From Arenimonas maotaiensis (GTDB lineage Bacteria > Pseudomonadota > Gammaproteobacteria > Xanthomonadales > Xanthomonadaceae): a DNA stretch of 64,000 bases. Made by a program: the position numbers and the translations under genes. The stretch is from positions 496,001 to 560,000 of the forward strand of contig NZ_BMFO01000002.1 of assembly GCF_014638745.1 (NCBI RefSeq), given 5' to 3'. Positions 62,926 to 64,000 of the stretch are shown here, one piece after another (within the stretch, counting starts at the first letter, position 1; the number at the start of each line of letters is the position of its first letter). The notes under the pieces were generated by a model. That model worked only from the letters and a program-made list of their open reading frames with translations, had not been told where the DNA came from and did not search any database.

Positions 62926-63372
62926 ATGGATACGCATCCGGCACTCCGTTACGCCGCGTTCGCGCTTGGCAGCCTGTGGGCCTTGCCGATGACCGCAGTC
63001 GGTCTGGTGCTGGGCTGCGGCGCGCTGGCGCTGGGCGCGCGCGTCTCGTTCTCGGACCACGCGCTGCTGTTCTCGCAGGTGCGCTTTCCCGGCCGCGGCG
63101 CGCTCACGCTCGGGCAGGTCATCCTGCACACTGGCCGAAGCCTGGACGAATCCGCCAAGACCTACCACTGCGCCGCGTTCGGCGGCAACGAGTGCGTGCG
63201 CATCGGCAGCCACGAGCGCGCGCACGTGTACCAGTACATGGCGCTGGGCGTGCTATTCCTGCCGCTGTATTTCCTGCATGGCGGCATCCACCACAGCAAC
63301 CGCTTCGAGCAGGCCGCCGACCGCTACGCGCTGACGGGCAGGGGCTGGTGGCCGTATAACTGGTTTCTATAA
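62926..63372 (+). CDS. Small membrane protein with HExxH and ExxxD metallopeptidase-like motifs
   Basis: A 148-residue protein with an N-terminal hydrophobic helix pair (about 8-42) and another near 105-119. It has His96-Glu97-x-x-His100 (SHERAHVYQYM) and, 28 residues later, Glu128-x-x-x-Asp132 (FEQAADRY), the zinc-binding layout of gluzincin peptidases such as M48 HtpX, though the protein is only about half the usual length. The C-terminus WWPYNWFL is aromatic. Conserved hypothetical proteins of this type exist in xanthomonads. Catalytic activity is not established. A GC-rich, normal composition shows it belongs to the core side of the compositional break. Confidence 0.7.
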   Translation: MDTHPALRYAAFALGSLWALPMTAVGLVLGCGALALGARVSFSDHALLFSQVRFPGRGALTLGQVILHTGRSLDESAKTYHCAAFGGNECVRIGSHERAHVYQYMALGVLFLPLYFLHGGIHHSNRFEQAADRYALTGRGWWPYNWFL

Positions 63373-63390
63373 CAGATAAGAAAAAGTCTT

Positions 63391-63483
63391 ATGGACTATA
63401 AGGTGGTAATCGGTATTATCGATTTTAATGGACAAGTTAATCAGTCACATAATGGTCAGCTCATGACCTTAGTCGATAATTAA
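63391..63483 (+). CDS. Possible 30-residue ORF in the AT-rich tail
   Basis: ATG at 63391 opens a 30-codon frame (MDYKVVIGIIDFNGQVNQSH...) with no clear Shine-Dalgarno. It may be a remnant of a longer gene or non-coding. Low support; listed because the region is otherwise empty. Confidence 0.2.
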   Translation: MDYKVVIGIIDFNGQVNQSHNGQLMTLVDN

Positions 63484-63532
63484 ATTTTTAGCAGTACAAG
63501 ATCATCGACTTGATTTAGCTAAGGATAATACA

Positions 63533-64000
63533 ATGAAATACTTAATTTTAATGTTGAGTTTTTTTCTTGCGGGATGCAATAAGTCTGATCTTGATAAAGA
63601 ACGCGATGCTAGAGAATATTTACAGGCTGGAATGATTGATAAGGCTGAAAAATATTATCAAGATTTGATTCTTTCTGAAGACGAAAATATGAAGCATGCA
63701 AATTGGTTATGGAAAGATCAATTGCTGCAACTATATTTAAAATCTAATCAGCTAGATAAAGCTGATAGATATATGGCATTCGTTATTTTTATCGATTCTA
63801 ATGGCATGCTCGATTATGAATTAATGTCCAGAAGCCACTCCGAGGTGGCAAAATCCCTGTATAACGAAAAAAAATATAGCAGAGCATATTTCCACTATAA
63901 AGCTAGTGCTGATTACAAGGTTGCTGATAAAAACAGAAATAAAGAAGAATGTAGCACTGAGGCAATTGAATTTTTTGCTTTAGCGTATGATTCAGCTAAG
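63533..64000 (+). CDS. Lipoprotein with repeat-like helical region, truncated by window end
   Basis: The first 156 codons of a gene running off the window. MKYLILMLSFFLAGCN is a lipoprotein signal with lipobox LAGC and lipidated Cys15. AAGGAT six bases before the ATG is a good Shine-Dalgarno. The mature part is helical and charged, with repeated patterns such as REYLQAGMIDKAEKYYQDLI, LYLKSNQLDKADRYM and SLYNEKKYSRAYFHYKASADY, resembling tetratricopeptide-like helix pairs (A-G/Y-A positions). Codon use is AT-rich and rich in Lys, Asn, Tyr and Ile codons unlike all neighbours, indicating horizontal acquisition. Function unknown; the partner genes would lie beyond the window. Confidence 0.75.
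   Translation, partial: MKYLILMLSFFLAGCNKSDLDKERDAREYLQAGMIDKAEKYYQDLILSEDENMKHANWLWKDQLLQLYLKSNQLDKADRYMAFVIFIDSNGMLDYELMSRSHSEVAKSLYNEKKYSRAYFHYKASADYKVADKNRNKEECSTEAIEFFALAYDSAK

Follow-up and report, generated by a model that had tools for sequence, protein, structure and literature searches.

The window, by which we mean the whole stretch of 64,000 nucleotides that was analysed, corresponds to C2:496001-560000 of the 2.16-Mb genome of Arenimonas maotaiensis (G000), and at its right end it runs into a short AT-rich segment. To the left of this segment and downstream of pnp lies a gene of normal GC content for a 148-aa membrane protein (mp; 62926..63372, plus strand), the last four codons and stop of which are in or at the AT-rich DNA. 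The mp gene was found in 22 of the 41 genomes searched, all 22 carriers belonging to the genus, and its product had no Pfam match at E<=1. By eye, the mp sequence contains HERAH and, after it, E..AAD, which resembles a zinc-metalloprotease pattern, and in one genome (G003) the match to mp is broken into three pieces. The segment itself, as delimited by composition and locus comparison (63358..64000 and on to ~64121 in continued window numbering, ~0.76 kb in total, no strand), carries a single gene, an open reading frame for a predicted lipoprotein of 195 aa (63533..64120, plus strand, with the stop outside the window), here called the orphan gene. At the base composition of the segment, a frame of 195 open codons would arise from a fixed start with a probability of ~6e-8, and a Shine-Dalgarno-like AAGGA was noted by eye 7 nt before the ATG (63521..63525, plus strand). 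No second long frame is present in the 160 bp upstream of the gene; promoter-like sites, of which there are 9 where shuffles average 2.7, were not counted as evidence. In a DNA comparison, the stretch 63366..63431 (plus strand) weakly resembles 63743-63804 inside the orphan gene, with a score that was reached by none of 500 shuffles and, with three scoring schemes, by 0, 3 and 37 of 5000; at the protein level, the score was reached by 179 of 1000 shuffles, which gives the resemblance no support. The stretch is possibly, if uncertainly, a decayed partial copy. The AT-rich DNA ends ~0.12 kb beyond the window, at a terminator-like hairpin (64126-64144) adjoining a tRNA-Leu(CAA) gene (64155-64240, minus strand; the tRNA was all that an Rfam search matched), which is followed by genes of normal GC content whose products look, by eye, like cysteine dioxygenase and MetX.

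The change in composition is abrupt. All 63 of the 1-kb windows from position 1 to 63000 have a GC content of 0.616-0.716 and the last one has 0.459; at the break GC falls from ~0.66 to 0.33, with 0.332 over 63373-64154 (window numbering continued). A survey of 522 kb of the contig (C2:96001-618000), in 5215 windows of 600 bp with a mean of 0.663 and an sd of 0.043, places the GC minimum, 0.33, in the AT-rich segment, which bears out the break after mp that a sequence-only reading of the window had described. That reading set the break at the mp stop codon (63372); the break is real, and its left junction lies slightly earlier, at ~63358, the mp coding sequences of G000 and its three nearest relatives matching through the WWPY codons and diverging from there on. 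The lipoprotein frame that it saw running past the window is present from 63533, with its stop 120 bp outside, at 64120. It had also named low GC in many ordinary genes of this genome as an argument against acquisition, and only three places in the surveyed 522 kb, the segment included, fall below 0.40.

The orphan gene (GC 0.33) has a GC3 of 0.32, compared to 0.92 in a fragment of the neighbouring pnp. This bears on whether the gene could be native, either as an old gene of the genus that survives here alone or as one born here and AT-rich by chance. Its tight fit between the flanks, together with a lipoprotein signal and a Shine-Dalgarno-like site that look functional by eye, would suit such an origin, but a GC3 of 0.32 within a contig of GC 0.66, the expectation that recent genes from local DNA would be GC-rich, and the lack of any match at E<=0.001 among the 26 further genomes of the genus make it very unlikely.

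Very AT-rich DNA is rare in the surveyed 522 kb and defence-like wherever it can be named. One of the other two places below 0.40 (C2:176026-178321; L081, L082; GC 0.37-0.39) contains an EcoRI-type adenine methylase gene (PF13651, 4.8e-128) and a GmrSD_N/HNH gene, a restriction-modification pair according to the family search. The other (C2:123776-126961; L079) is an ORF of 1061 aa that looks by eye like a restriction-modification enzyme; its middle has a GC content of 0.33-0.41, with both ends higher, and is perhaps an exchanged recognition domain. For the orphan gene, the character of these places is at most a hint. Elsewhere on the contig, a second single-gene low-GC islet (C2:466507-466950; L096; GC 0.49) reads by eye as an HNH-type protein, and a lower-GC cluster (C2:221500-229000; L084; 0.53) as glycosyltransferase, UDP-GlcNAc epimerase and flippase-like genes.

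The three relatives nearest to G000 (G001, G013 and G024) have an mp that is ~82-83% identical to that of the window, and their mp, tRNA-Leu and cysteine dioxygenase-like gene follow each other in the order seen in G000, with metX next in G001 and G024 and the G013 contig ending before it. Between mp and the tRNA, all three carry a PliI-family lipoprotein gene (Pfam PF16743, E 2.5e-7, 30.9 bits at a cut-off of 27) on the minus strand, opposite to the orphan gene. Strong matches to this PliI gene occur in these 3 of 27 genus genomes; the gene was not found in G000, and weak matches in two further genus genomes (E 7.7e-5 and 1.7e-4) cover the first 45-55 residues. The right junction is sharp at the terminator AAAAACCCCTCG..CGAGGGG, common to G000 and the three relatives, in which a similar hairpin stands beside the tRNA at the same place. 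Because a MetX tree (15 rows, midpoint root, G013 left out as it had no usable MetX) puts G000 sister to G001+G024 with support of 100/100 and 99/97, the PliI gene may be a gain of the sisters and not a loss in G000, and both a replacement in G000 and a gain by the sisters are possible histories of the slot. The conserved flank order and the tRNA terminator common to the segment and the relatives also speak against an assembly error or contamination, as do the location of the segment inside a 674-kb contig and the listing of the genome as 100% complete with 0.13% contamination; such an artefact, with which composition alone is compatible and which has no direct support, is extremely improbable.

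The content of the slot between mp and the tRNA differs between related species. Eight loci have the 3' end of the tRNA facing mp, namely those of G000, G001, G013, G024, G007, G008, Lysobacter concretionis (L075) and Vulcaniibacterium gelatinicum (L077), and in all of them mp and tRNA are 773-1253 bp apart. Besides the orphan lipoprotein in G000 and the PliI-family gene in its three nearest relatives, this space holds a 194-aa protein with no Pfam family over the cut-off (G007), DUF3667 (G008), TANGO2 (L. concretionis) and a YoeB-like toxin (V. gelatinicum). Given that the slots of G008 (GC 0.50, versus 0.525 for its fetched contig), L. concretionis (0.675) and V. gelatinicum (0.665) are not AT-rich, low GC does not characterise the slot in general. 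The block of cysteine dioxygenase and tRNA-Leu between mp and metX has two orientations in the genus and is reversed in ten other genus genomes (loci noted for the two orientations: L041, L043, L045-L048, L051 and L054-L057). When it is reversed, the space beyond the tRNA 3' end measures 32-336 bp in nine of ten cases and 1925 bp in G004, where a 1.9-kb insert on that side (L043:7745-9669, GC 0.556) contains an HSDR_N_2-like gene (24.6 bits, just under the cut-off of 25) and a second ORF without a Pfam family. Thirteen of 15 named loci lacked a tRNA in the 4 kb fetched for each and are uninformative on the slot, and a literature search on tRNA-Leu, integration hotspots and Lysobacter returned no paper about it, as judged by title.

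Such a location might suggest that the segment is what remains of a prophage or integrative element that had used the tRNA-Leu(CAA) gene as its entry point and has since lost all but one cargo gene by deletion. The cargo lies on the tRNA 3' side in all eight loci just described, and in G004, where the block is reversed, the insert is again on that side. In addition, a survey of 119 genomes assigns 39% of their ORFans to clusters of atypical genes, of which many are likely to be integrative elements (PMC2718499). However, no integrase was recognised, and none of nine slots has a tRNA-end repeat of at least 10 nt (in G000, the longest exact match is 5 nt on the far side and 6 nt in the slot), so that insertion by a tRNA-targeted integrase was rejected. 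A phage gene was likewise rejected, as neither phage records nor viral contigs gave a homologue and PHROG matches to the orphan protein were weak and mixed (best E 5e-4, an endolysin/head-packaging family). Nine of the ten measured gaps in the reversed orientation are as short as 32-336 bp. Overall, we regard a decayed element as possible but rather unlikely.

The orphan protein begins with MKYLILMLSFFLAGC, in which a signal peptide and the lipobox LAGC were recognised by eye, and with an N-terminal signal whose lipobox ends in Cys the product is a predicted lipoprotein. Its best match in the genus was in G042, at E 0.0092 (31% identity, residues 42-130). No convincing homologue turned up in samples of 398 genomes from the order, 369 from the class and 398 from the phylum (its own included); the sole further match, and the best outside the genus, is a 397-aa frame (E 9.9e-4, 31% identity) that looks by eye like a TPR protein of the LapB type. 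Plasmids and phages gave no match at E<=0.01, and neither did pattern scans of GTDB contigs and IMG/VR viral contigs, which reach close relatives only. All Pfam TPR models scored below their curated cut-offs (TPR_14, 13.2 bits at a cut-off of 23.5; TPR_2, 12.2 at 27; TPR_19, 11.3 at 25), the NCBIfam LapB models reached E 5e-4, far under theirs, and a Pfam comparison with PliI gave no match; a sequence search of the PDB returned TPR proteins at best, at E 0.31. An AlphaFold2 model of the 156 of 195 aa inside the window, made from one sequence without relatives, had a mean pLDDT of 52.8, was best (~61-81) at residues 11-50 and predicted helices at 17-31, 35-46 and 51-70. Among PDB structures, Foldseek ranked LapB first (E 0.13, probability 1.00 over 62 columns), with none of 593 matches at E<=0.001. 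We lean weakly, on these profile and fold resemblances, towards a TPR-like protein, which is a leaning and not a result.

Taken together, the segment is likely to be a single-gene islet, ~0.76 kb of foreign DNA with an orphan lipoprotein gene (an ORFan) for which the collections searched gave no convincing relative, in a cargo-variable slot beside a tRNA. Genomic islands comprise ~10 kb or more of foreign genes. The sequence-only reading had taken the break for the probable border of an island with defence, surface or toxin genes, but ~0.76 kb of AT-rich DNA with one gene is followed by tRNA-Leu and genes of normal GC; from ~64.2 kb on, GC is back near 0.67 and stays so through 58 kb past the window, and a large island was accordingly rejected. 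The mobility or defence genes that it named as possible support for an island were not found either: a six-frame reading of the segment recognised no integrase or mobility gene (surrounding ORFs were judged by eye only), and no PADLOC family matched at E<=1, which led us to reject a defence system. Nor is the locus downstream of pnp empty in the three nearest relatives, which it had named as further support for an island; they carry the PliI-family gene there instead. Its proposal that the segment was acquired gains support from the atypical composition, the failure of the remaining 26 genus genomes to give a match at E<=0.001 and conserved flanks around a different gene, and the orphan gene is not found at this locus in relatives, where its general presence had been named as evidence to the contrary.

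The islet sits exactly between mp and the terminator of the tRNA-Leu(CAA) gene. In its likeliest history, a recombination event would have replaced the content of the slot or filled it, keeping the flanks and the terminator on the tRNA side. Searches found no donor in the sequences covered, and the case for a foreign origin is therefore built on composition and absence in relatives; neither an integrase nor a tRNA-end repeat points to a mechanism of entry. Once exported, the orphan protein would receive a lipid at Cys15 and be anchored in the envelope, where TPR-like helices on the periplasmic side might bind a partner protein. Its role would most likely be one of envelope protection or adaptation, possibly as an adaptor.

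A more specific proposal is that, in Lysobacteraceae, the small mp-tRNA-Leu(CAA) slot serves for the exchange of envelope-protection lipoproteins, with a PliI-type inhibitor of peptidoglycan hydrolases in the three sisters and here an unrelated, TPR-like and new orphan immunity protein that would counter an enzyme or weapon used by neighbours or phages. By analogy, the PliI gene at the same position suggests an envelope-protection slot, and the topology of the Xanthomonas citri immunity lipoprotein XAC2610 is reported to resemble PliI (PMC10933484), with periplasmic lipoprotein forms of such immunity proteins described as well (PMC6536674). The XVIPCD effector domain was found in none of seven genomes (G000 and six relatives), in a search that gave no control match, and the same model finds it in 19 of 60 genomes from the family. 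As G000 has no XVIPCD, the orphan protein would not guard against an X-T4SS effector of its own, and immunity to such an effector was rejected. Given this absence, and given that TANGO2, DUF3667 and the YoeB-like toxin in the other slots are no envelope immunity proteins, the exchange of envelope-protection genes is highly improbable.

An acquired single-gene islet would add one more orphan lipoprotein to those already known, and it illustrates that a striking GC break at the edge of a window can mean a single-gene islet rather than an island. The compact slot beside tRNA-Leu(CAA), with different single genes in related species, represents a simple place to seek small acquired genes. Among known systems, the PliI-family lysozyme inhibitor lipoprotein (PF16743) shares with the orphan protein the slot, in the three nearest relatives, and the prediction of a lipoprotein, but differs in family and strand. 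TPR proteins such as LapB show a weak profile and fold resemblance to it over ~60-100 residues, although its scores are all far under the curated cut-offs; LapB is about twice as long and is not known to be a lipoprotein. The X-Tfi immunity lipoproteins, such as XAC2610, are similarly small predicted periplasmic lipoproteins from the same bacterial family (PMC10933484, PMC6536674), whereas the orphan gene has no recognised adjacent effector gene and G000 no XVIPCD effector domain. A parallel in origin might be the ORFans in clusters of atypical genes (PMC2718499), which share with the segment an atypical composition, the lack of relatives in the collections searched and a likely recent acquisition, and from which it differs in being one gene and no cluster, with no trace of a carrier element.
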